A stretch of DNA of 64,000 bases, from assembly GCA_017546505.1 (NCBI GenBank), contig JAFYWV010000099.1:62001-126000 (forward strand). Direction: 5' to 3'. This document shows, one piece after another, positions 2,633 through 34,489 of the stretch. Position numbers and translations under genes: made by a program. Each line of letters begins with the position of its first letter. Within the stretch, counting starts at the first letter, position 1. The notes beneath the pieces were generated by a model. The model did not search any database, was not told where the DNA came from, and was given only the letters and a program-made list of their open reading frames with translations. The DNA is from Bacteroidaceae bacterium (lineage in GTDB: Bacteria; Bacteroidota; Bacteroidia; Bacteroidales; Bacteroidaceae).

Positions 2633-5600
2633 TTAGAGTGTTAGATTAAGATAGAACTCGAATCCCTGGCTGTAGAGGTAATCTGTACCGCGTTCAATCT
2701 TCACGGTAGAGAGGCGCAGGATATCGGTGAAGTTTATACCGACACGCATATTGCGTAACTTGATTTTCTTGCACAACCTGTCGCTGAACTCATAGCTGAG
2801 GTTAAGCGAACCCAATGAAAGGGTGTGCTCCTTCTCGGCAAAACGGTCGGTCTGCTCGGGACGCGAAGTGTCGGCAATATCCTTGTACATAGCGTGGTCA
2901 CCCGGCTGTTTCCAACGGTCGTCAAAGACACGCTGGTCGGCATTGCGCATTGGGTCGGCACCCTCAACCTTTGTGGCACGTGTGGTATTGTATACCCAAG
3001 CACCGGTGCGGAAACTGAACAACGCATATACGCTGAAACCCTTCCAGAACACGTTTGTGCTGAATGTCCCGGTAAAAGCAGGCTCTGTATCGCCAATGAG
3101 TACCTTGTCGGCCGGGTCATAGTCGAATGTATACTCACCATTGCGCTTGATATACACCTCTTTACCAGTAGCGGGGTCGATACCGGCCGAACGCACAAGT
3201 TTGAGCGCGGTGACACTCTCACCCTCGGCATACTGTGGCAGAGGGGTGAGATAAAGGTCGGCATTCTCCTGGTTCTCCTTGTTTATCTCCTCAAGAGCCT
3301 TGTCTATCTTGGTAATCTTGTTACGGTTCATATAACCGCTTGTGGCAAGGCGCCAGTAGAAATCGTTCCTGCGGAAGATGTAGCCGTCAATCTGATACTC
3401 GATACCCTTGTTCTGCAGTTCACCGAGATTCGACGTAGCGCTTGTGACACCTGTTGAGGGCGCTTTTGCCTTGTCAAGAAGCAAATCCTCGGTATTGCGT
3501 ATGTAAGCATCGACAGTAAGATTCAGGCGACGGTCGAACATACTCAAATCGAGACCTACGTTGTAGTTCATTGTACGTTCCCAGGTGAGGTCGACATTAC
3601 CGATTGTCACCGGTATTGCACCAATTCCGTTCTTGTACTCATAGTCATTGAGGTACTGGTACATTGTCATCGCCTGGAATGGGTTGAATGTCACCTTACC
3701 CGTGTAACCGGCACTACCACGGAATTTGAACACATCAAAGTGTTTCTTTATGCTTTTCATAAACGGTTCGTTCATCACATTCCAACCAAGACCACCCGAC
3801 CAGAAATGGCCGAAACGGTTGTTCTCGCCGAATTGCGAAGAACCGGTTGTTCGCCAAGTGGCATCTACAAAATAGCGGTTACGGAACGAAAGGTTACCGG
3901 TGGTAAAGAAACCGACATCGGCAGTCTCGGCCTGTGAGCCGAATGGTTTGCTATCTGTCGGATAGCCGGCAGCATTACCGATGTATGACATATCGTCGTT
4001 GAAGAAACCTATCACCTGCAAAGTCTCGCCACTGCTCTTTGAGCTATTGATTTCCCAACCGGCAGAGAGGCTTACAAGCGACTCATCCTTGAAGAACTTA
4101 TTGAACGTACCCACAATGTTTCCATTGTAGCCGATAGCCTTGGAGATTCCTTTTGTATACTCACCCTTCTTAGAGAGGTCGGTAACATTTTTATAGGCCT
4201 GCGAATTGGGCGACGTAAAGATATCACTGTTACCGGCAGAAGTTGTCACGTTAAAATGTCCTGTGAGCAAAAACATCTTGTTTATATCCCAACGCAGGTC
4301 GGTACTGTTGGTCAATGTACGCTCTCCACTAGTAGAGAAACTGCCGAGAGAAGCCTCATATAAAGGATTGTTCAAATCCCACGCAAGATTCATATTGGGT
4401 GTACCATCGGCATTATACATCTTGTCATAAGGATTCATCTGCACATATTGCGAAAAAGAGCCGTAAGGCGAATTCTTCACAGCCACCTCCTGATATGTAG
4501 TTCGGTTTGAGATTGTCAGGTCGCCCACATAGTAGTCAAGCTTGAAACCGATACCGGTGCGCTTGCGGTAGTCGCCTTTCATAACACCGCGCGTATCGCC
4601 AAAACGGCCTGTCAATTCGTAACGCAGGTTCGACGCACCACCATATACACGCAGTGAGTGGTCGTGTGAGAACGCAGCGCGTGCAGGTTGTGAAAGCCAG
4701 TCGCTACTCTGCCCGGCAGCAATGAGTTTATATCGCTGGTTGTAGAGTTCGTCATACTCGTACTGCAACGGCAGACCTGTTGTTGCACTTATCGCTCCTT
4801 TTGCATCGTAAAGACCGGCAAGACGCTCATATTCGAGTTTCTCGGCAGCCGACAGGACATTGTAGTCGCTGAGCACAGGCAGCTGGAAGTTACCCGTAAA
4901 GTTATACTGTACACGCAGAGTACTCTCCTGAATTGGTTTACGGGTGATTACAATGACACCGTTTGCAGCCTTTGAGCCATAGAGCGCTGTTGCGGATGCA
5001 TCCTTGAGCACTGTAATATTCTCAACCTCGTTAATATCCAGGTCATACAAATCCTGCATAGTGATTTCTGTACCATCAAGAATGATTGTTGGCTGGTTCA
5101 CCTGCTGACCGCTATTGGAGAACGAGCTCATACCACGCAACACAAGCTCGGGAGTGTGATTCGGATTTGAGCCCTGGCTTGTATTCTGCACCATTGCCAT
5201 ACCCGGTGTGAGTGCGGATATCGCACTGATGAGATTCGTACCAGAGACCTGACGCAACTCAACGCCGGAAATTTCGGTTGCCGAACCGGTGAAAGTCTCC
5301 TTATTCTTGGAAACGAAACCAGTGACGACCACCTCGTTCAGGGTGTTGCTCTCCTCTGACAGCTCCACACGCAAATTATGCAACGCACCACTCAGGGAAG
5401 AATATTTCGCTTCGGCATATCCCACATAAGAGATACGCAACTCGAAATCAATCACAGGAGATATGATCTTGAACTTTCCCTCGAAATCGGTTGATGTTCC
5501 GGTGAGCAGACGGCCGCCCGACCACACCGCTACATTCACACTAATGAGAGGTTCACCACTCTTCTTGTCGACAACAACACCCGTTGCGACATTCAAATCA

Positions 5601-5860: not shown

Positions 5861-8302
5861 TTACTTCACAAGCACCTTGTTTCCATTCACAATGTAGAGA
5901 CCGGGAGCGGTGATGGCATCAATCTTGCGGCCCTGCATATCGAAGATACCCTTAACAACAGTATTCTCAACAACAGTATTCTCAATACCTGTAGCACATC
6001 TTGTAGCTTTGATATTCTGATAGAACACAGCACCACTGGTGATTGAATTTGTGCTCCATTCATAGTGTGCAAGGAAGAAATCGGCAATAGAAATTGTACC
6101 GTCCTCATTTGCAGTAAACACAACAGGACCTGTTGAGCCATTCATATCGTAAACCTTCATATACTTAGGATATGAACCGCCTACAAACGCATCTGTCGCC
6201 ATCTCGGCGCTCTTGTTATCCTCGGCAATAGTAAAGAGAATACCACCATAGTTCAAGCCCTTAACATCGTTGCTCATAAACTGAGTAACGAATACATAAT
6301 CGCCGCTCTCTTCAATTGTCATATAGAATGTCTCGGGATACTCCTCGCCATCGTAAGAAGTCTGATAGCCAACAGTCACCTCCCAAGTACCGAACCAGCT
6401 AAATGGTTCATCTTCCTCAGCGTCACCACCAACAGCAGGGATTGTAACGTTCTGGTAGTAAACGGCTGCAGTCTCTGAAGAATTATAGTTCTCGTCATAC
6501 TTCAAGTGCTTGATGAAGAAGTTTGAAACATTCACAGAACCGTCCTCGTTGAGTGTAAACACGATTGGAGATGTAGATGCGTTCATATCATAAAGCTTGA
6601 GATACTCAGGAAATGAACCACCCACAAATGAACCTGTCTTCATCTCGGCGCTCTTGCCATCCTCGGCAATTGTAAAGGAGATACCACCATAGTTCAAACT
6701 CTTTACATCGTTGCCCAAGAACTCTGTTACAAGAATTGTACCATCTACATCGCTTACAGTCATTGTAAACTCAGCAGGATACTCATTGCCATCGTAAGAG
6801 TCAACCTTAGCTGCCTTAACAACGTGCTGACCAATCCAGCTGAATGCAGGAGCTTCTTCCTCCTCTTCACCCTCTGTAGCAGCCTTTGTGACAACAAGGT
6901 TAGAGTAATAAGCATTCAAAGTGTTAGTAGTGCTGCCATACTCTCCTGTAGCTACAGAAAGGCCCATAATAGACATTGTACCATCCTCATTTACAGTCAT
7001 CTTGATTGAACTTGTTGTAAGGTTCATATCAAGAATCTTCATAAACACACCACCACCCAAAGAATAGAGGTTACCGGTCTTGATTTCTGCGCTCTTGCCA
7101 TCCTCGGCAGGTGTCAACATAAGACCACCATAGTTGATAGAGTTGATGTCATAACCGAACACACTTGTCACACAATAGATATCACTTGTCTCGTAGTATG
7201 TTACCTCGAACTGGAACTCTGTTGGCCACTCGATGCCGGCAGTATCAGCAACATACAAATCACCAGCCTTCACGTTATATACACCGGCCCAGTCAAATGC
7301 GGGTGCTTCTGAAGGCAATTTCAAGGTACCGTCCATATACCACTGCTGCAATTCAGTAGCAGGAACAAGTTCGCCCTCAGCGTTCTCTTTTTCGGTATCA
7401 ACAACGAATGAGAAACCGTTGTAGAGCGAGAAAGCCTCCTCTGACTGGCTTTTGAACTCAATAGCGCCTTTCTTCACTGTGCTACCGTTCATATTGGCAA
7501 AGCGAATACCATTTGTTGCATCGATATATGTGCTGTCGTATGCAATAGACAAAGTATTGCCATCGAATGTAGCAGGCAATGTAACAGTCTCAAAGCCCTC
7601 GATAGCAATTGTAGCATTGTAAGCACGGCCAGCGCCGTCGGTCTTTACAAGCGCAACAGCAAACTCTGTTGGAATTGTTGAACCCTCCATTGTACTGTAG
7701 GTGCTGCTGCCAGCCTTGAAATTCCAGTCGCCGCTGATGTCAGCAATCTCCACGGTTGCACCCTCAACAAGAGTCATCTTCACATTTGTATACTTTGCAA
7801 TGATAGTACCCTTGTCGGCAGTGTAGCTTGACAATGTAACAACTGTAAAATCCGGGATTGAGATTTCCTTTGTAGTAGGGTCAAATGTGTAATACACAGG
7901 ACCGTAGCTCTCTACCGCCCACTCACCTGCACTACTGTCCCAAACACCATAAGGGTTGTCGCCATTTTCATTAGCGAGCATAAGTCCATTGCTCCACAAC
8001 GCAGGATTGTTGAGGTTGAGAACCTTGATCATACTCTGCTCAATGCTGATTGCGTTGATGTTCTGCTGTGTCTGTGAACCTGCGAAACCAACAATCTTGG
8101 CACTGTAAGTACCATCCTCTGAAATCTCAGCATCACATTCTGTAGGCAACTGGCTCTTATAAGCCTCGCCCTCTGCTGTAAACTCAATGTCTGCAGTAAA
8201 CTTGTACTTACCGAACAAGTCCACAATACTGCTTACCTGAGCTGTTGCCTGTACTGCCATAAAAAGCATAAGGCAAACCAACATAAAGTAATTCTTTTTC
8301 AT
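5861..8302 (-). CDS. Large secreted protein with repeated beta-domains and T9SS-like C-terminal tail; function unknown
   Basis: The 813-residue product has a signal peptide (cleavage near VQATAQ) and a series of about five related domains of 130-160 residues. The last three are most alike, each containing a NYGG segment, an AEDGKSAE-type segment and a NEDG segment before the next linker. Linkers are acidic (GEEEEEAP, GDAEEDEP). The C-terminus (GIFDMQGRKIDAITAPGLYI, ending NGNKVLVK) matches the sorting-tail style of T9SS substrates in Prevotella and relatives, so surface anchoring or release is likely. It lies between a TlpA-like gene and susC, all on one strand, and may be part of the same functional locus, though its own terminator precedes susC. 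I do not recognise a named family for the repeat. Confidence 0.8.
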   Translation of the reverse strand: MKKNYFMLVCLMLFMAVQATAQVSSIVDLFGKYKFTADIEFTAEGEAYKSQLPTECDAEISEDGTYSAKIVGFAGSQTQQNINAISIEQSMIKVLNLNNPALWSNGLMLANENGDNPYGVWDSSAGEWAVESYGPVYYTFDPTTKEISIPDFTVVTLSSYTADKGTIIAKYTNVKMTLVEGATVEIADISGDWNFKAGSSTYSTMEGSTIPTEFAVALVKTDGAGRAYNATIAIEGFETVTLPATFDGNTLSIAYDSTYIDATNGIRFANMNGSTVKKGAIEFKSQSEEAFSLYNGFSFVVDTEKENAEGELVPATELQQWYMDGTLKLPSEAPAFDWAGVYNVKAGDLYVADTAGIEWPTEFQFEVTYYETSDIYCVTSVFGYDINSINYGGLMLTPAEDGKSAEIKTGNLYSLGGGVFMKILDMNLTTSSIKMTVNEDGTMSIMGLSVATGEYGSTTNTLNAYYSNLVVTKAATEGEEEEEAPAFSWIGQHVVKAAKVDSYDGNEYPAEFTMTVSDVDGTILVTEFLGNDVKSLNYGGISFTIAEDGKSAEMKTGSFVGGSFPEYLKLYDMNASTSPIVFTLNEDGSVNVSNFFIKHLKYDENYNSSETAAVYYQNVTIPAVGGDAEEDEPFSWFGTWEVTVGYQTSYDGEEYPETFYMTIEESGDYVFVTQFMSNDVKGLNYGGILFTIAEDNKSAEMATDAFVGGSYPKYMKVYDMNGSTGPVVFTANEDGTISIADFFLAHYEWSTNSITSGAVFYQNIKATRCATGIENTVVENTVVKGIFDMQGRKIDAITAPGLYIVNGNKVLVK

Positions 8303-25831: not shown

Positions 25832-25993
25832 CCAATTCGCGCAATAACACTTCCCGTCCGGGTCTACAAGGTTCACCGGGTCGCCGGCGCAGTAGGCGTA
25901 GGGCGAGAGGTGGTAGTACTTCTCGGCCAAGGGGTCGATGGTGGAGAAACGCGGTATGAGCGAGTATTGCCAACGGGCACCGGAGTCGTACAA
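25787..25993 (-). pseudogene. Truncated orphan RHS core C-terminus abutting rel
   Basis: This frame encodes the last part of an RHS core (WQYSLIPRFSTIDPLAEKYY and onward to NLVDPDG), almost identical to residues 850-896 of the full RHS protein upstream. After DPDG the frame runs for only about 20 more codons, antisense to the 3' end of rel, and stops. No ATG is in frame; the Met of the full-length copy is TTG here, and a stop lies about 25 codons further upstream. It begins about 30 bp after the candidate immunity gene. It is best read as the remnant of a second toxin cassette that lost its tip, or a recombination scar, rather than a working gene. Confidence 0.8.
25854..25992 (-). repeat. Direct repeat of RHS core end, copy 1 (orphan)
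   Basis: This 139-bp stretch matches 27209-27347 with only about 4 visible substitutions and no gaps, in the same orientation. It spans the conserved end of the RHS core up to the codons for DPDG, the place where variable tips begin. Confidence 0.93.
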
Positions 25994-26021: not shown

Positions 26022-26573
26022 TTAGTAATGTGTTTTAATTTTATTTAAGTGAAAGAGTTTTTTCCCATATATAGTATCACAGTCTGGTAGCACATTAAAA
26101 AGTATTGTATCCATCATTTCATCTATTAAATAATGTCCAATAATTTTTATTGAATAAATTGTATCGTTACAAAAAGTTGAATATACTGTTTCAAAGTCTG
26201 CGCCATCACCGTAATCTCTTGCCACTAATATTATATCTTCATTGTTGTATTGGTCATAGCCTATAAGATATTCCTCAGCAGATTCATCATCGACACGTAT
26301 AAATCCTTTATAATTAGAATTGTAAGGTAAATGATAGTAACGGAACCAATTACCGTATTGGTCTTTCAATTTTCCTTCTTTATTTATGTCTCCAATAATC
26401 TTAGCTATGCAGTGAATTTCATTAGAATCATTTATCAAGTTTCTCTCCTCAACAACATCTTCAAGTTTATATTTATCATTTACATACCCATCATCTAATG
26501 TAAAATACAAAATCGAAGAACATCCGCTAAAGAGCAACAACACAAATGGCATTAATACTATTTTCTTATTCAT
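26022..26573 (-). CDS. Small lipoprotein, candidate immunity protein of the RHS peptidase toxin
   Basis: The 183-residue product has a lipoprotein signal (LLFSGC, Cys18) and an acidic, Tyr/Asp/Asn-rich mature part with no family I recognise. Its start lies 4 bp after the stop of the RHS toxin gene on the same strand, the usual place for an immunity gene. If the toxin tip is a murein peptidase, the immunity protein has to act in the periplasm, and a lipoprotein fits that. The gene is clearly more AT-rich than rel on its other side, a sign of recent transfer. The immunity role is inference from position and localisation only. Confidence 0.7.
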   Translation of the reverse strand: MNKKIVLMPFVLLLFSGCSSILYFTLDDGYVNDKYKLEDVVEERNLINDSNEIHCIAKIIGDINKEGKLKDQYGNWFRYYHLPYNSNYKGFIRVDDESAEEYLIGYDQYNNEDIILVARDYGDGADFETVYSTFCNDTIYSIKIIGHYLIDEMMDTILFNVLPDCDTIYGKKLFHLNKIKTHY

Positions 26574-26577
26574 AAAA

Positions 26578-29500
26578 TTACTCTACAATATTTATGTCAG
26601 GTCTAAAGCCTTGGATATGTAAATGATGGTGGTGTTTAATAACACTTCTTGTGTTTTGTAAAAGCCAGCCATCTTCATTTCTTTTAAATGACAATATATC
26701 CTTGAAACCAAATTTATTCAAACTATTAACAAAAATCTGATTGCTTTTTTCATCGAAATACATATCATCAACTGTTACTGAAGATAATTGTCTATCTGTC
26801 CTAATATATCTAACATCTACATTCCTTCCATTTACATGACTTGTTTTTCCTCCCGTGTGAGCTACACCAGGTTTTCCACCATCAAATGAACTCATATCAC
26901 CAAATTGAATTATTATATTATTGTCATATTTATATATATCATTAACGGCCCCAAATAAAGCAGCAGCTGCTGAAGGTTGTATTGAATGGTCACCTCCTTC
27001 ATCTTGTTCCCCATATCTGCTAAATCCAATTCCTGATGATGGGAATTCAACCAAATCAATACCATCTTTAGTCGTATATTTATCTAATTTAGCAACATAT
27101 TCTAGTGTATTGTCATTATTTTCTATGTAAAATTCATCATACTTGTTGCTGTTAATACGTCTCGTTAATGTTCCGTTAGAGTGTATAATCCATTCATCAT
27201 AAAATCTCCCATCCGGGTCTACAAGGTTCACAGGGTCGCCGGCGCAGTAGGCGTAGGGCGAGAGGTGGTAGTACTTCTCGGCCAAGGGGTCGATGGTGGA
27301 GAAACGCGGTATGAGCGAGTATTGCCAACGTGCTCCGGAGTCGTACATATCGAAGCCGTGCAGCTCTACCTCTTCCTTGCCGCAGAAACGGCGAGGTTGC
27401 ATAGAGGGGTTTACACGATTGTATGGAACACCAGATGGAAGGTATTCAAGGCTCTGCAGCACCTCGCCGGTGTTGCCATCGCAGGTGAGGCGTACATTGC
27501 CAAGGTAGTCCTTGACAAAGAAATAGAGTTTCACATCGGGCTGTTGCGTGGTGTCATTCTGCAAAGAGATGTAACCGCCGGGAATGTCGATGTGTGACAT
27601 TATACCGTTCTTGAATACTAACGGGCCGGTACGGGTCTCTGTGTAGAGGGTGATTGGGTCGCCGCTGTATATGTTGTTGGCGGTCGGTGACACAAGGGCG
27701 GTTTGTTGCACCAAGGCTTTGGTGCCGACGCGCCTGCCGTCGGCAAGATAATAGAACTGCAGGATGTTGCCGCCGGTGAAGGTTATGCTGTCGGGGAGGT
27801 TCAGATGGTTGTATCTTGCATAGAGCATATCACGCGTGAGGTCGCGTGTCTCGTTCCCGTTGAGGTCGTATGCATACGTATCGCTATCGAGGCTTTGCTG
27901 TATGTACATATATTCATACTCGAGGGGATAACGCTGACTGGCACAGTCGTCGGCTTTTACACGCTGGTTGCCGTTCAGGGTGAAATCCATTACATTGACA
28001 TCGCCTTCGGGCATTGTGCGGCAGATGTGCTTGATGTTGCTCATATCGTCGTATCCGAACACCTCTTTGATATGTTTATAGCCGTATCCATTGCCATCAT
28101 AAGCTTTAGCTTCGGTGTAACGTGCAAGGTGGTCGTAGAGTATGTCAAATCGTGTACCGGCGGTATTGCCGTTCTGGTAGGTTTCTATGGCAGAGATTCT
28201 GCCATTGTTGTATTGTGCGCCGTAGGCGTTAGCGGTTTCTCCGTAATGGAGATATTGTGTAAAACTGTCACTCTCTACCCCACGGTATTTCCCGTCGTTG
28301 TGGTAAAGGTGTAGCATGTTGTAAATGCTGTCAAGAATGTTTTCTGTTGTCTTGCGGCAGAACTCGTCATACGAGGTGGTGTGTAGGGTGTGATTGACAC
28401 TTTTGGTTTCTGTTCCCAATGTATTAGTTACAGAAATCTCACATTCTGTTTCGCGCCCGCCGGTATCATAGTTGTACTCGTACGTAATGTCGAGCACGCC
28501 TGTTGCAGTGGTATATCTCGTTTCTTCTTTCAATAAGCGGTTGTTGAAGTCATAGCTGTAGTGGGTGCTTGTGCCGGTGTTGTTTATGTTTTCATATTCG
28601 GCTGTGTGTATATTCCTGCCGCGGTTGTCGTACCAATGGGCGGTGACTGAATATTTCTCGCTGTTGCCAAGCAAGGCTGTATATGTTCCTGTCAGCATTG
28701 TCTTGGGAGGGTAAAACGAGCTGGGTGCGGCATCGGCGGTCTCATAGAACTGGGGTTGCGTGATAAAATCGTATGTGTCGTAATAGTAGACCTTCAGTAC
28801 TTGTGCTGAGGTTCCAAGGTTTATGTTATCGGTGTAGCCAAAAGGCTTGCTTATGTCAAATGTTTCCTTGACACAAATGCCGTTCAGCATTGCGGATAGT
28901 GTTGACGGTATGGCTGCATTTGTGATGGTTCCTTCTATTACGACTCTGCCAAGGGCGTCATATTTTGTATAACTCCATTCGTTACGGATATATTGTTCGG
29001 GGGTGCTGGTCATTACCGGGCGTGAGTCGGCATCGTATATGGTATAGTGCCAACCGGTTGCCGGCAGTTTGGCGCTTGTGCGGCGGTTGCGGTGGTCGTA
29101 TTCGTAGAAGTAGGCGTATTGTTCAAGTTGCGTGCAGTCCGAAAGGTTATAATCCCCTGTTGAAGCTGTGGCTTCGGAGGCTATTGGAGGCAGAACACAA
29201 CGGAGATTACCGTAAATGTCATAGATATGGTAGGTGTCGGTATTCTGACCGTAGGCTGTCACGCGACGTTCAAGTATAATTTTCTCATCATTGTCCTTGA
29301 ATACTAAGATTGTATTGCCATCCTCGTCTGTTGTACGGGTATAGGAGAGTGCCCCCGGAAGGTAGCTGCCATTGTTGGTTATGGTTGTCCCGTCTATGGT
29401 ATAGCGCGTAATGCCAGTACTGTTATATCCGTATTCGTATGTTACAGACTTGCCTGGTGTGTTTGCTCCGGTTGTAGATAACAGGCGCCCACCCGGCATT

Positions 29501-29895
29501 GTCTCGTATGAATAATCAATATGGTAAGCACTGCTGTATCCCGAACTCTCAAATGCTGACAACGGTACGTAGGAGCCTCCTTGTGTTCCTAGCGGCAATG
29601 CTGCCCAGTCACGTACTCTTCGGCCAAGGCTGTCATAGGCTATGTGGGATACGAGGTCTTTGCCTTGTGGGGTTGTTCCATGCAAGACGGTCTGCACTTC
29701 ACGGCCTGCAACGTCATAGTATTGTGTCGTTGTCATTGAGTTGCTTTCCGATGCGCCGGTTGCCGGCGACACGGATTCTACGGGAATTCTCTTTCGTATG
29801 TGGTTCTGTTGTGCAAAGACAGTACTGCAGGTACACAGCAGAAGAGATATTGCAAAATATCCCGTTGTGTTTATAATATTATTCTTCTGTCGCAT
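26578..29895 (-). CDS. RHS-repeat polymorphic toxin with C-terminal LAS/MepA-like murein peptidase tip
   Basis: The 1105-residue protein has a Sec signal peptide (CSTVFAQ), a DUF6443-like N-terminal region (VESVSPATGASES, YYDVAGREVQT) and many YD/RHS repeats (YDSLGRRV, YDIYGNLR, YDALGRVV). The RHS core closes with SPYAYCAGDPVNLVDPDG, Gly896. The remaining 209 residues are a different, AT-rich module. It contains FGDMSSFDGGKPGVAHTGGK, then SHVNGRNVDVRYI (His1020, Gly1023, Asp1027) and HHHHLHI (His1091, His1093). The H-x2-G-x3-D plus H-x-H pattern is the zinc site of LAS peptidases (VanX, MepA), which cleave peptidoglycan cross-links. RHS cores normally encapsulate the toxin and cut at the DPxG region. 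The start overlaps the upstream RHS gene by 17 bp. Confidence 0.88.
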   Translation of the reverse strand: MRQKNNIINTTGYFAISLLLCTCSTVFAQQNHIRKRIPVESVSPATGASESNSMTTTQYYDVAGREVQTVLHGTTPQGKDLVSHIAYDSLGRRVRDWAALPLGTQGGSYVPLSAFESSGYSSAYHIDYSYETMPGGRLLSTTGANTPGKSVTYEYGYNSTGITRYTIDGTTITNNGSYLPGALSYTRTTDEDGNTILVFKDNDEKIILERRVTAYGQNTDTYHIYDIYGNLRCVLPPIASEATASTGDYNLSDCTQLEQYAYFYEYDHRNRRTSAKLPATGWHYTIYDADSRPVMTSTPEQYIRNEWSYTKYDALGRVVIEGTITNAAIPSTLSAMLNGICVKETFDISKPFGYTDNINLGTSAQVLKVYYYDTYDFITQPQFYETADAAPSSFYPPKTMLTGTYTALLGNSEKYSVTAHWYDNRGRNIHTAEYENINNTGTSTHYSYDFNNRLLKEETRYTTATGVLDITYEYNYDTGGRETECEISVTNTLGTETKSVNHTLHTTSYDEFCRKTTENILDSIYNMLHLYHNDGKYRGVESDSFTQYLHYGETANAYGAQYNNGRISAIETYQNGNTAGTRFDILYDHLARYTEAKAYDGNGYGYKHIKEVFGYDDMSNIKHICRTMPEGDVNVMDFTLNGNQRVKADDCASQRYPLEYEYMYIQQSLDSDTYAYDLNGNETRDLTRDMLYARYNHLNLPDSITFTGGNILQFYYLADGRRVGTKALVQQTALVSPTANNIYSGDPITLYTETRTGPLVFKNGIMSHIDIPGGYISLQNDTTQQPDVKLYFFVKDYLGNVRLTCDGNTGEVLQSLEYLPSGVPYNRVNPSMQPRRFCGKEEVELHGFDMYDSGARWQYSLIPRFSTIDPLAEKYYHLSPYAYCAGDPVNLVDPDGRFYDEWIIHSNGTLTRRINSNKYDEFYIENNDNTLEYVAKLDKYTTKDGIDLVEFPSSGIGFSRYGEQDEGGDHSIQPSAAAALFGAVNDIYKYDNNIIIQFGDMSSFDGGKPGVAHTGGKTSHVNGRNVDVRYIRTDRQLSSVTVDDMYFDEKSNQIFVNSLNKFGFKDILSFKRNEDGWLLQNTRSVIKHHHHLHIQGFRPDINIVE
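27209..27347 (-). repeat. Direct repeat of RHS core end, copy 2 (within the full gene)
   Basis: This is the intact copy of the 139-bp core-end sequence shared with 25854-25992. It encodes the residues leading into DPDG. Two such copies flank the toxin tip and immunity gene, which allows homologous recombination and tip exchange or loss. Confidence 0.93.
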
Positions 29896-32800
29896 AATGG
29901 TACTCTATTTGCTCAATAATGTTTTCTGCGTCACCAACTACTTCTATTACTTGATGCAGGCGGTTGAACTCATCGTATGTGTAACGGGTCTCTACTCCAC
30001 GTGCATCGGTCTGTGATACCATACCAACGAGCGGCTCGTATCTGCTTACTGTAACTTGTGCATTTGGCAATACATTGCGCAAGTTATGCAATTTATTCCA
30101 ATCTGCATCGTCCGGAAAAGGTTTTTCGGCCAATTCATCGATATTTATGCCACTGTTGATAACATCCTGTAGGGTCGCGTTGTTTATTTGTGCTACAATA
30201 TGTTGGTTTCCATAGCTCCAAAGCAGAACAACACGACGACCACCACGACTGATGAGTTCGGTCACACGTCCTTTGGCGGTGTAGCTGTTATATGTCACAT
30301 CGGCAGTAGTGGAACTGTCCATCGAAAGCGTTACTGGGCTTTTGTCCAAGCCTTGGTTTCCTATAAAACTATATTCTTTATACGGCTTAACTATTGTAGA
30401 GTTGTGATGGGTCTTTACAATGGCCTTTTCCAATGTATTGCCGGTATAATATTTTTCCATTAGAGGGACTGTTTTTAATTGGCTGTCTTTGAACGTACCA
30501 CCTAAATATGAGGGGTAGTCTACAGAGTATGAATATTCAATTCTCTTTGTAGGGTGCCCTGTTGCATAAATCCTTGCTGTTTTCAACTTGAAGATTGAAT
30601 CGTGATAAGTGTATTTGAAACTCTTGACATTCTCATCCTCTTTAATACTCATACTGTCGAGGTATGTGTAAAAATTCTTAACATAGTAACATCTTGAGTA
30701 ATTTGCATCACCTATTTTCAGACATTTTATTTTTTCAGTGGAAATAGTATCGTATTTGTATATGATATCTTTTTGAGGAATTTCATTGTAGAACTGAACA
30801 TGCCTTGTCATAGTCCCATTCAATGGATTATGCGTGCCTTGATCATTGTAATAATAATAATCAGTCTCTGGTTTGTTAAAGAATGTGTGTGATTCCGTAA
30901 TACTATCTCCTGAGCAAAGTGTCGTACTATATACTTTTGAATAACCAATATGATTACCGTTATATGGATTATAAGCACTACGAGTTGTAAATGAATTAAA
31001 CGCAACTGTATAAAAAACAGCATTTACAATATAAAGCCCGGCACAATATGTGTAAAAATAATAAATTGTGGGATGCGAATGCCTCGGTTCTCTTAATAGC
31101 AAGCCAGTGCTATACCCATTTTCTGCATAAAAATAGTTGATAGTAGAGAGAGGGGATTTTATTTGGGAAATCCTCACACCTCCGACAATATCTTTTTTAA
31201 GAGCCGTTTCTATTTTTTGTATTGATAAGTTAATATATACCTGTGCGTTTCTGATAGACTCCAATTTGAGGGTAAAAGTGTCCAAATACGCGTTTTGATT
31301 TATAAGCCCTTCAAGAGTAAATGTTTTTTTTATACTATCTCCATTCGTTTCGGTAATTGTACTTTGTGGATAAGAGAAGCATCTTATATACCCTGGCAGT
31401 GTATATATTCCAATCTTGTTGTTTGTGTTATTAAAAACTTTATTTTCTTGGTATTCTAATTTAATACGGTATGCATAATTATTATCAATTTCTACAGGGA
31501 TTTTTAAAATTGTATCACTGGAAATATTGTTTATTGTAAAGTCCTGCATCTTCGTTGAGGTATATACAGTATCAAGTTTTGTTGTGTATATATCATTACA
31601 ATCATATTTAAAACGAGTTGATGCTCCAGTTGGAGTTGTTAGTCCTGTCAATATCCAAGTTTTTGCAGCAGTATCAGGTTTTGGATCATATTCATCTTGA
31701 TAGTAATATGTTTGACCCTTAGGAACTACAATTTTGGTTTTGTCAATAGATATTCCACCGGCTGCAATGTTGTCTGTTTTATAAGCATACCAATTGTCTG
31801 TAATTGTACAAGGATAGAATGATTCCTTTTTGAAATTGTTTGTTGTGTAAAACCCCCATTTGTCAGTGAAATGGTCATTTTTTAGTGGCAGATTATTGCT
31901 CATATCATATTCCATCGTGTATTTTTGTGCGTTATTAATAGTGATAGAATCCAAACGTAACCTTGCTGCCAGATAATTTGTTGTGTCGTATACCACTTCT
32001 TGATTATATCTGTATTTCCCAACAAAATATGAATGGTGTAGTTTGTATGAAAGAATGGGTGAGTCGCCATATATAGGGTATATGTTAATATATTCAAGTG
32101 CCCTATTTTCACTTGGCACACGCCTACCTTTTTCATATCCGGTTATGTCAAATCTCTCATTTAAATTTCTTTTAAATTCAATAGTTCCTTGATTCCATGT
32201 AATTGAATTTAAAATATATTCGGTCTTGTTCAAATCCATACTCCAATAACGTCTGTCTTTTGGCTTGCACTCATCCTTGGATATGATTGGATCGAAAAAG
32301 AAATATTGTTCTTCCAATATCTTGTATTTTGTATAAGATTCATAAGCAGGGCTTAGGTATGAATTTGTCAGCATTACGTAGTTGAATTGTATGGAATTTC
32401 CATTTGGAAGGATAATCTTGCTTAACAACCAACTTGTGACTGTTGTAGGATATGAAAAAATTGTTTCATCGTATGGAACATAATCGCTGTCGTAGCCGAG
32501 GGTTTCACTACCTTGTTTCTCGTCTTCAAAACACATATTACAAGTCGCTCTTTGTTCTATGTCATTAAAAATGAACTTTGTATTGTCTTCTGCAGTGATT
32601 GTAAAACAATTGTCACATCCTTCTATGCGTAAATTGTCTTCTGGATTAAGCAACATAAATCTGCTTTCATCTTCTCTCTCATATTCGCCTTTACGCACGA
32701 TGAATTTACCGGAATATCCGGCAAAGTTATAGTGATAAATATCTGATTCTGTGTCAAGTTTAGAGTTGCTGATATTATCTGTCTCTAATAATGGAGACTC

Positions 32801-33277
32801 GTAGTGGTCTGGAAAATCATCAGAACACATATAAAATCCGAATTCATCAAAATCATCTCTTTCCTGTATTGTCCTGCTTATACAGCCACCGGCATGTAAA
32901 CTCCATCCAAGTCCTACACGACTTGCTTCTTGCGCGACTTTTATCCCGGAGGCATGGTATCTTAGTGAAATTGGCAAACTAAAATTGCCGACATTTATGG
33001 TATAAATGGGTATTGAAATGTCGGGAATACCAGTGTATAGCGATACCGGGATATCTGAGTATTGCATTAAAGCATGAGATTCCGGTGATGGAGCATGGTC
33101 TTTGAAAATTTCATTTGCACCGCTGTGAACAGAAGCTTTTGCCGGCAAAGTTAAAGTGTCTGATAATATGCATTTACTCTCTTGCTTGACAGATAGCATA
33201 GACTCCTCATTAAGAATCTGTGCATTTGAAAGCAATGCTGTAAAAACAAAAAGTAATGATAATGTTGTTTTATTCAT
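29879..33277 (-). CDS. RHS/YD-repeat-family large secreted protein (N-terminal partner of the RHS toxin)
   Basis: This 1132-residue protein has a signal peptide (ALLSNAQ) and the typical N-terminal region of Bacteroidetes RHS proteins (SLYTGIPDISIPIYTINVGN, then LRYHASGIKV and GLGWSLHAGG). A long beta-rich middle follows, and YD-type repeats appear near the C-terminus (VETRYTYDEFNRLHQVIE). It ends without an RHS core or toxin tip. The next RHS gene begins 17 bp before its stop, so the two behave like two halves of one giant RHS polypeptide made separately. The arrangement recalls the separate B and C subunits of Tc toxins, but I see no other Tc signature. Its role may be to form part of the RHS shell. 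Confidence 0.85.
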   Translation of the reverse strand: MNKTTLSLLFVFTALLSNAQILNEESMLSVKQESKCILSDTLTLPAKASVHSGANEIFKDHAPSPESHALMQYSDIPVSLYTGIPDISIPIYTINVGNFSLPISLRYHASGIKVAQEASRVGLGWSLHAGGCISRTIQERDDFDEFGFYMCSDDFPDHYESPLLETDNISNSKLDTESDIYHYNFAGYSGKFIVRKGEYEREDESRFMLLNPEDNLRIEGCDNCFTITAEDNTKFIFNDIEQRATCNMCFEDEKQGSETLGYDSDYVPYDETIFSYPTTVTSWLLSKIILPNGNSIQFNYVMLTNSYLSPAYESYTKYKILEEQYFFFDPIISKDECKPKDRRYWSMDLNKTEYILNSITWNQGTIEFKRNLNERFDITGYEKGRRVPSENRALEYINIYPIYGDSPILSYKLHHSYFVGKYRYNQEVVYDTTNYLAARLRLDSITINNAQKYTMEYDMSNNLPLKNDHFTDKWGFYTTNNFKKESFYPCTITDNWYAYKTDNIAAGGISIDKTKIVVPKGQTYYYQDEYDPKPDTAAKTWILTGLTTPTGASTRFKYDCNDIYTTKLDTVYTSTKMQDFTINNISSDTILKIPVEIDNNYAYRIKLEYQENKVFNNTNNKIGIYTLPGYIRCFSYPQSTITETNGDSIKKTFTLEGLINQNAYLDTFTLKLESIRNAQVYINLSIQKIETALKKDIVGGVRISQIKSPLSTINYFYAENGYSTGLLLREPRHSHPTIYYFYTYCAGLYIVNAVFYTVAFNSFTTRSAYNPYNGNHIGYSKVYSTTLCSGDSITESHTFFNKPETDYYYYNDQGTHNPLNGTMTRHVQFYNEIPQKDIIYKYDTISTEKIKCLKIGDANYSRCYYVKNFYTYLDSMSIKEDENVKSFKYTYHDSIFKLKTARIYATGHPTKRIEYSYSVDYPSYLGGTFKDSQLKTVPLMEKYYTGNTLEKAIVKTHHNSTIVKPYKEYSFIGNQGLDKSPVTLSMDSSTTADVTYNSYTAKGRVTELISRGGRRVVLLWSYGNQHIVAQINNATLQDVINSGINIDELAEKPFPDDADWNKLHNLRNVLPNAQVTVSRYEPLVGMVSQTDARGVETRYTYDEFNRLHQVIEVVGDAENIIEQIEYHYATEE

Positions 33278-34409
33278 TTAGGTTGTCCTCCATATATATT
33301 TTTTTACAAATTACCTTATTTTCATAGCTAACGATAAGCAGGTATGTCCCTTGTTGCAAATCGGTCAGGTCAAAAGTTGTTTTTATCAGATGACCTTCTA
33401 ATGTTTTTAAGTGTACATTCTCGAACGCTATACCACCAATACTTGCCAATGCGATGGAAATATCAAGATTCCTGTCTGTCATTAGCTCAATGGCTAATGT
33501 ATTATGATTATCCTGGTGACAACTCAGTCTTATATCATCGTCACCAATTTCTGAAATCCCGGTATTGCAAAGCGTGTTTTCTTGTGTAAAAAGATTTACA
33601 TGACGAAGTGTGTCGGATTTATTTATCGTAATAGTTTTTTTCTCTTGCCCGTAAATTGGGTAGTAATATGAGTTTGTACTATGTAATGTCTTTTTGCCAT
33701 CCTTTAGCAGATATGTAATTGTTGTCTCTATTATGGAATGTTTGTAGTCGGGGATATACCAATTATAGTTCTCTATAATCCAGGTTAATGAATCTTGCTT
33801 TAATCTATCGTATATTGATGAATTGGGGCTATGTATATCATCATAAATCTTGGTATCCGGTGTGAGAATCTGTCCAATATGCTTTCTCTTTAACGTTCGG
33901 TATGCACCGTACCTCACGCTGTCTCCCGGCAAGACTATTGAGCCATATGAGTCTATAGAATAGATAGAATTCCCGTACACATACATATTCAAGATACTGG
34001 AATATTTTCCTTCACCATATATATGCGAAGTGGTTGCAATGCCATATTGTAAGCTATTAATCTTATGAATTTCCGGCTTTATGTATTTCAGTTTTGTATT
34101 TTTGGTATTATAACCAATGCAATAAAGTGTGTCACCGGAATTTTTATAGTAGTTGTAACAGAATGGGGTTATCTCTACTGTTATAGAATCGTTTTGTGCT
34201 ATATATTCATCTATATGCTCCTCATCATAGATGCACAGCTCTCCAAAATCCCAAAACTTACTCTCACCAGCTTCACCCGGATGTGCGAATTCAATAGTTT
34301 TCCGGATGATTGTTTCACTGTTATTTAGCATTGCACTTTGGGATTGTGGAGAAACGGCAATGTTGCTTAAAGTGAAAAACAAGAAAAATATAAAACAACG
34401 ATATCTCAT
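33270..34409 (-). CDS. Secreted protein with T9SS-like C-terminal tail; function unknown
   Basis: From the ATG at 34409 (a TTG two codons upstream is also open) the product has 379 residues and a signal peptide (FFLFFTLSNIAV). The body is Tyr/Asn/Ser-rich with no family I recognise. The C-terminal 80 residues look like a T9SS sorting domain, ending with LQQGTYLLIVSYENKVICKK. It overlaps the start of the next RHS gene by 8 bp, so translation is probably coupled. In this operon it may be an export or surface adaptor for the RHS proteins, which themselves lack such a tail; this is inference. Confidence 0.75.
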   Translation of the reverse strand: MRYRCFIFFLFFTLSNIAVSPQSQSAMLNNSETIIRKTIEFAHPGEAGESKFWDFGELCIYDEEHIDEYIAQNDSITVEITPFCYNYYKNSGDTLYCIGYNTKNTKLKYIKPEIHKINSLQYGIATTSHIYGEGKYSSILNMYVYGNSIYSIDSYGSIVLPGDSVRYGAYRTLKRKHIGQILTPDTKIYDDIHSPNSSIYDRLKQDSLTWIIENYNWYIPDYKHSIIETTITYLLKDGKKTLHSTNSYYYPIYGQEKKTITINKSDTLRHVNLFTQENTLCNTGISEIGDDDIRLSCHQDNHNTLAIELMTDRNLDISIALASIGGIAFENVHLKTLEGHLIKTTFDLTDLQQGTYLLIVSYENKVICKKIYMEDNLNE

Positions 34410-34489
34410 AAACAAGCTTTTTATTATTGTAAACCAAAATATACACTATAAAATTGACATACACATATCCTCATATAACGGCTACTCCT

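Follow-up and report, generated by a model that had tools for sequence, protein, structure and literature searches.

In a 64,000-nucleotide stretch of DNA from a Bacteroidaceae bacterium (assembly GCA_017546505.1, contig JAFYWV010000099.1, positions 62,001 to 126,000 of the forward strand; hereafter the window), we identified a gene for an Rhs protein which is likely to be an exported polymorphic toxin; its C-terminal tip would be a peptidoglycan endopeptidase, M74-like but divergent, and its antidote a periplasmic lipoprotein encoded directly behind it. This reading comes from sequence comparisons and has four main supports: a residue pattern present in all 20 rows of a family alignment, a stand-alone relative (L028) that bridges the family to M74, downstream genes with a signal-like start at 18 of 19 tips, and a genome of the same genus (G416) in which the lipoprotein gene appears to persist as an orphan. 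Together they support the toxin and immunity pair proposed in a first-pass annotation of the window. Genomes and loci are referred to by G and L numbers, respectively. The features at the centre of the analysis are the following.

26578..29895, minus strand: Rhs protein, 1105 amino acids (aa), from the open reading frame (ORF); DUF6443 at residues 41-141, Rhs core at 831-896, then the C-terminal tip
26578..27207, minus strand: C-terminal tip, residues 897-1105 (209 residues), putative divergent M74/MepA-like LAS peptidase domain
Within the tip: residues of the MepA-like pattern, His1020, Asp1027, His1088, His1091 and His1093 (family alignment and comparison with E. coli MepA)
26022..26573, minus strand: 183-aa lipoprotein with lipobox LFSGC, candidate immunity protein (ORF and lipobox pattern)

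An Rhs core is followed by a tip with a MepA-like residue pattern

The Rhs core family TIGR03696 matched residues 831-896 of the window protein (38.2 bits, cut-off 32.5), and other tips follow near-identical core ends in G416; a core end followed by a variable tip is the layout of an Rhs polymorphic toxin. The ORFs, the core end in front of the tip and the 4-base gap from the end of the Rhs gene to the start of the lipoprotein gene were confirmed as first annotated, and so was the shift to AT-rich DNA at the tip, where the GC content falls from 0.494 (27208-29895) to 0.316, with 0.288 in the lipoprotein gene. Segments as AT-rich as the tip make up 1.3% of all 630-base segments (step 50, 64 kb). 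The tip is not alone in its low GC, as both genes upstream of the Rhs gene in the run are AT-rich too (0.356 and 0.35).

Within the tip, His1020, Gly1023, Asp1027, His1091 and His1093 were present as claimed, and an overlooked residue, His1088, makes the C-terminal motif H-x-x-H-x-H. The counterpart in E. coli MepA is H206-x-x-H209-x-H211, along with H110, H113 and D120; His1020 corresponds to H113, Asp1027 to D120, His1088 to H206, His1091 to H209 and His1093 to H211. We take the MepA residues of H-x6-D and H-x-x-H-x-H to be zinc ligands. Both elements expected of M74, H-x6-D (His1020, Asp1027) and the C-terminal H-x-x-H-x-H, are present in the window tip. The pair of motifs originally proposed (H-x6-D, then H-x-H) arose in 6.3% of 20,000 shuffles of the tip and is therefore weak on its own; the frequency was 0.16% with H-x-x-H-x-H and 0.035% when the upstream GD was added (20,000 shuffles each).

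With hhalign, tip profiles were placed on residues 92-122 of E. coli MepA, with GDM...H-x6-D over GDM...H113-x6-D120 (E 0.0022-0.019). A shorter piece of the tip reached E 0.0032 and 17.5 bits against Pfam M74 in two matched stretches, under the cut-off of 25, and the tip matched the NCBIfam MepA model at E 0.005 with 16.3 bits (cut-off 272; best stretch 153-198). No M15 family (VanX/VanY) matched up to E = 1 in Pfam or NCBIfam. The first-pass annotation had compared the tip to LAS peptidases "such as VanX and MepA" and had proposed a profile check: the likeness to MepA and M74 stood, as a weak match under the cut-off, while an identity with VanX or M15 was dropped for want of any match. Two other kinds of hit were set aside, namely Pfam HSF_DNA-bind on the tip (E 0.066), taken as chance, and PDB matches to unrelated proteins, whose alignments, where shown, mostly end in His-tag-like runs.

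A stand-alone protein bridges the tip family to M74

Genome searches for the tip gave matches in 6 of 395 phylum, 9 of 395 class, 7 of 393 order and 3 of 101 relative genomes, counts that include the window's own genome and matches judged false. Among the 101 relatives, the protein search returned the own genome, G491 (same order) and G230 (judged unrelated by eye), and a related-locus search gave 9 loci, including Chryseobacterium, Capnocytophaga, Flavobacterium, Echinicola and a Cyclobacteriaceae genome. Tip searches in plasmids and in viral contigs gave nothing useful, PHROGs held no family for the tip, and PADLOC was likewise unproductive. Nineteen family tips and the stand-alone protein L028 were aligned in 20 rows (alignment A5), with duplicates entered as one row each (L013=L042, L036=L043, L037=L050, L009=L047, L024=L048); the broken tip gene of L049 was left out of the alignments, as were the matches L002, L007 (G230), L018 and L023 (G580) and L022 (G787).

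Asp1027, His1088, His1091 and His1093 are invariant in all 20 rows. The first His lies 7 residues before the Asp in 11 rows, the window and L028 included, and 12 residues before it in 8; L041 (5200-6252), with no His within 16 residues before the Asp, is possibly inactive. The expectation that homologues of the tip keep the proposed residues was thus borne out for the Asp and for HxxHxH, and failed for the first His, shifted in 8 of 20 rows and absent from one.

L028 passed Pfam M74 with 34.3 bits (cut-off 25), shares H110, H113, D120, H206, H209 and H211 with E. coli MepA, and scored 29.8 bits with a profile built from just the 19 tips, a value that none of 2000 shuffles reached (1265 of them scored at all). 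Three of the 20 aligned members, the window included, matched M74 at E <= 1, the best at 1.8e-8, presumably L028. The homology of the window tip to M74 is therefore drawn from this bridge protein and the residue pattern, not from a direct significant match; the tip is best called M74-like, apparently closer to M74/MepA than to VanX (M15).

Most genes behind the tips encode proteins with a signal-like N-terminus

Each of the 19 tips is followed by a same-strand gene starting at -4 to +95 bases behind it (for L008 an internal start, at a signal-like Met, was taken). By a simple hydrophobicity rule, a signal-like N-terminus was found on 18 of the 19 downstream proteins (not L027), against 57 of 137 control ORFs from the same loci (Fisher p 7e-6), and a strict lipobox on 7 of 19, the window protein among them, against 14 of 137 controls. 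BLASTP at 1e-3 grouped the downstream proteins into four clusters (L008, L039, L040, L045 and L048; L010 and L011; L042, L043 and L050; L044, L046 and L047) and six singletons (window, L025, L026, L027, L038 and L041), and a common ancestry of all of them was rejected on this account.

The only PHROGs result for the window lipoprotein was one weak unnamed family. No acidic residues directly follow its Cys; such residues are presumably the signal for surface export of Bacteroidota lipoproteins, and their absence suggests that the protein faces the periplasm. That Bacteroidota lipoproteins have a surface-export signal is described in PMC11885536. The window lipoprotein is probably the antidote of the adjoining tip. 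In Echinicola pacifica (L049, 5785-6500), the tip gene is broken across two frames and the downstream lipoprotein gene (6611-7219) is open, possibly another orphan immunity gene.

A related genome keeps the lipoprotein gene after nearly all of the tip is gone

The lipoprotein had matches in 7 of the 101 genomes: the own genome, G416, G420, G423, G427 and two weak ones, L064 in G453 and L065 in G463, the latter judged an unrelated membrane protein. In G416, 549 of the 552 bases of the gene are identical to the window and the three differences are all synonymous, compared with 84.8% and 79.0% identity for the neighbouring spoT-like and MltD-like genes (names by eye). The gene adjoins the same relA/spoT-like gene in both genomes; in G416 an array with other Rhs tips and the genes downstream of them lies in front of it. 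Similarity to the window reaches 39 bases into the tip and covers the stop and the final 12 codons, two of which differ, still in place before the lipoprotein gene; tip DNA beyond those 12 codons was found in 1 of 44 genomes of the genus, the window's own, by a DNA search that diverged tips could escape. These data suggest that G416 lost the tip and retained the gene behind it, following a recent exchange or recombination between species, and that this gene is now an orphan immunity gene with nearly all of its tip gone. Such retention is the behaviour expected of an immunity gene and is no proof of neutralisation. Orphan immunity in Bacteroidales is the subject of a preprint (PMC12247911).

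The array itself (L060, G416:C12, 2-7339) holds Rhs tips with downstream genes, among them a tip of YkuD type (L,D-transpeptidase; 38.9 bits, cut-off 23.4) at 4610-5353 and two Peptidase_M91-like tips, at 2906-3631 (26.6 bits, cut-off 25) and at 6000-6563 (19.0 bits, under the cut-off). Elsewhere, the lipoprotein relatives L062 and L063 lie between antiporter-like and glycosidase-like genes (names by eye).

Neighbouring genes, export route and carrier proteins

Three further features of the window surround the pair.

25853..25992, minus strand: Rhs core end again, this time downstream of the lipoprotein gene, matching 27208-27347 at 136 of 140 bases
29879..33277, minus strand: upstream gene for a protein of 1132 aa that has a single RHS repeat match and, by eye, a signal-like N-terminus
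33270..34415, minus strand: 381-aa protein with a weak Por_Secre_tail match, first gene of the overlapping run

Signal-like starts were seen by eye on the Rhs protein and on the products of both upstream genes. Two Rhs-type proteins thus stand in tandem (29879-33277 and 26578-29895), their genes overlapping by 17 bases and each protein with a signal-like N-terminus of its own. Por_Secre_tail, a sorting domain (type A) of the type IX secretion system (T9SS), matched the 381-aa protein at E 0.018 with 15.8 bits (cut-off 27), and the general domain scan gave no sorting-domain match on the window Rhs protein. GldM of the T9SS was found in G000, the window's own genome, and in G416. TssD, the one family searched for the type VI secretion system (T6SS), was found in G012 and G285 and not in G000, G416 or G154; as G000 is 86% complete and a single family was searched, the absence of a T6SS is unproven. 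Export of the Rhs protein probably includes a T9SS step.

Among the tip proteins, 11 of 19 were scanned with TIGR03696, which matched the window protein and all 10 others, L045 and L048 under the cut-off. The L026 tip protein had an RHS_repeat match. DUF4280 proteins carry two of the tips, L009 (=L047) and L038, and the L010 tip adjoins a DUF4280 gene in G012, one of the genomes with TssD; no Pfam family was found at E 0.01 on L010's own protein or on L011, L027, L044 and L046. We lean towards the broader view, with somewhat less assurance than for the window pair itself, that these loci represent a Bacteroidota-wide family of MepA-derived tips with two active-site spacings, for which Pfam and NCBIfam have no covering model so far. 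The tips would move between Rhs proteins that are exported, probably in connection with the T9SS, and effectors of T6SS type. Each copy would be accompanied by an exported immunity gene; these genes would belong to several families with no BLASTP link between them, cross species and outlive the tip.

Two observations concern individual loci. L038 (2618-6670) combines DUF4280, a GH19 match under the cut-off and then the M74-like tip, so that a single T6SS-type protein may hold two wall-cutting domains. Rhs fragments with VanY or Peptidase_M15_4 tips lie close to M74-like tips in L008 (7564-8721) and L026 (1169-2332), so that two different types of LAS peptidase stand near each other in both loci. 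Tips of M15 type on Rhs proteins may also be treated in PMC10210955 and PMC6833914, among other papers, in which both "Peptidase M15" and "Rhs" occur.

Proposed mechanism and alternative explanations

In the mechanism that we propose, the Rhs protein would be exported by Sec and then probably with the help of the type IX system. The tip would fold like MepA, with His1020, Asp1027 and His1093 holding zinc and His1088 and His1091 completing the site, and would attack peptidoglycan at its peptide cross-links once in the periplasm of an adjacent cell. The lipoprotein, on a periplasm-facing anchor, would protect the producer and its kin by binding and blocking the tip. Recombination at the core end would exchange the tips; immunity genes could stay behind as orphans.

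Several results weigh against this reading. The tip alone scored 16.3 bits against Pfam M74 (E 0.0079; best stretch 100-142), under the cut-off of 25; the hhalign probabilities were low (2.5-13%) and the alignments covered about 30 residues around the first motif; E. coli MepA obtained 4.0 bits against the 19-tip profile, a score equalled by 3 of 2000 shuffles (779 scored at all); and PDB profile searches did not retrieve MepA. Within the family, M74 gave no match at E 1 for 17 of the 20 aligned members, 9 of the 20 do not have the first zinc His at -7 (8 shifted, 1 without), and the invariance of the other residues is partly circular, because members were collected with profiles that already contained them. 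As for the downstream proteins, the signal criterion is crude, passing 42% of control ORFs, and the strict lipobox is confined to the 7 of 19 counted above. Moreover, lipoprotein homologues 46-49% identical to the window protein occur without the tip and outside Rhs loci in G420, G423 and G427, as longer solitary proteins of 377-449 aa (L061, L062, L063). The premise of the first-pass annotation that the lipoprotein would not be widespread without the tip therefore failed in part, in three genomes of the same genus.

The weak direct similarity to MepA would fit a tip that is a LAS-clan metallopeptidase toxin other than a MepA-type endopeptidase, for instance a carboxypeptidase or another peptidase with an envelope substrate. 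The two first-His spacings (-7 in 11 and -12 in 8 of 20) may mean different substrates, and M15-type tips lie close by in L008 and L026. However, the tip shares its C-terminal HxxHxH motif with MepA, and M74 is the Pfam peptidase model passed by the relative L028; we regard this explanation as unlikely.

A real toxin could also be followed by a lipoprotein that is a passenger or accessory rather than its antidote. The homologues outside Rhs loci, in longer proteins, favour this view, as does the lack of BLASTP similarity (1e-3) between the window lipoprotein and the downstream proteins of the other 18 tips. Nevertheless, G416 keeps a near-identical lipoprotein gene with the end of the tip still in front of it, and 18 of the 19 tips have a signal-like gene behind them, which makes a mere passenger rather unlikely.

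We consider it improbable that the tip is degenerate or never delivered and that the locus serves as a recombination reservoir. Such decay would accord with the missing first His of L041, the split tip gene of L049, the failure to find TssD in G000 and the lack of a sorting-domain match on the Rhs protein, but the window tip has a full-length open frame and the five pattern residues, its protein a signal-like N-terminus and its gene an adjoining lipoprotein gene. Finally, a chance motif on an unrelated domain, for which the 6.3% of shuffled tips with the original motif pair and the Pfam match under the cut-off could be cited, is very improbable, since all 20 rows carry the residue pattern and L028 provides a bridge to M74.

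Relation to known systems

The favoured reading, an M74-like tip on an exported Rhs toxin with a lipoprotein antidote, has partial precedents. MepA is the penicillin-insensitive murein endopeptidase of Pfam M74, and a LAS peptidase according to the title of a reference in PMC7400221. It shares with the window tip the residues of GDM...H-x6-D and H-x-x-H-x-H in the same order, and L028 passes M74; unlike the putative toxin tip, it is a housekeeping enzyme, and the window tip stays under the M74 cut-off and has no significant full-length match. MepA-like DD-peptidase domains also occur in WHIX T6SS effectors, of which 13 unique proteins are tabulated (PMC12135965). There the domain acts as an effector, as proposed here, but it is N-terminal to WHIX and T6SS-delivered, whereas the window tip is C-terminal on an Rhs protein with a signal-like N-terminus, and the search of its genome for TssD found none. 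MepA-like T6SS effectors are thus already known, and the window would add an M74-like tip on a Bacteroidota Rhs protein. In a paper on an S. Typhi immunity islet, a MepA-like gene is described upstream of a t0735 homologue (PMC7400221), which places it beside an immunity candidate, as in the window, although it is not described as an Rhs tip in the part cited.

The literature, judged mostly from listings, showed no M74-like tip on any Bacteroidota Rhs protein, and no paper was found on Rhs with M74 or on DUF6443. A wall-cutting tip with a periplasmic antidote would give the pair a clear target compartment, and the orphan gene of G416 shows the candidate antidote kept after most of the tip has gone. 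Since the window tip falls under the cut-offs of both Pfam M74 and NCBIfam MepA, such tips may escape annotation.

In Apibacter, rhs genes lie beside genes for T9SS type A sorting domains, and displaced tip arrays are described (PMC8125069); the likeness is that of Bacteroidota Rhs genes adjoining T9SS-type genes, with the difference that the words "peptidoglycan" and "peptidase" are absent from the main text of that paper. The TANFOR polymorphic toxins of Bacteroidetes have a proposed T9SS link and downstream immunity genes (PMC7073777), and differ by their TANFOR N-terminus and by the lysozyme type of the peptidoglycan hydrolase tips named there. A collection of polymorphic toxins includes L,D-peptidase Rhs toxins (PMC3482391), and MepA, M15 and VanY are absent from the first 300,000 of the 357,715 characters of its main text. 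The same collection holds Imm65, its only lipoprotein immunity protein, which resembles the window lipoprotein in being a lipoprotein that serves as an immunity protein and differs in its partner, Tox-JAB-1 (PMC3482391).

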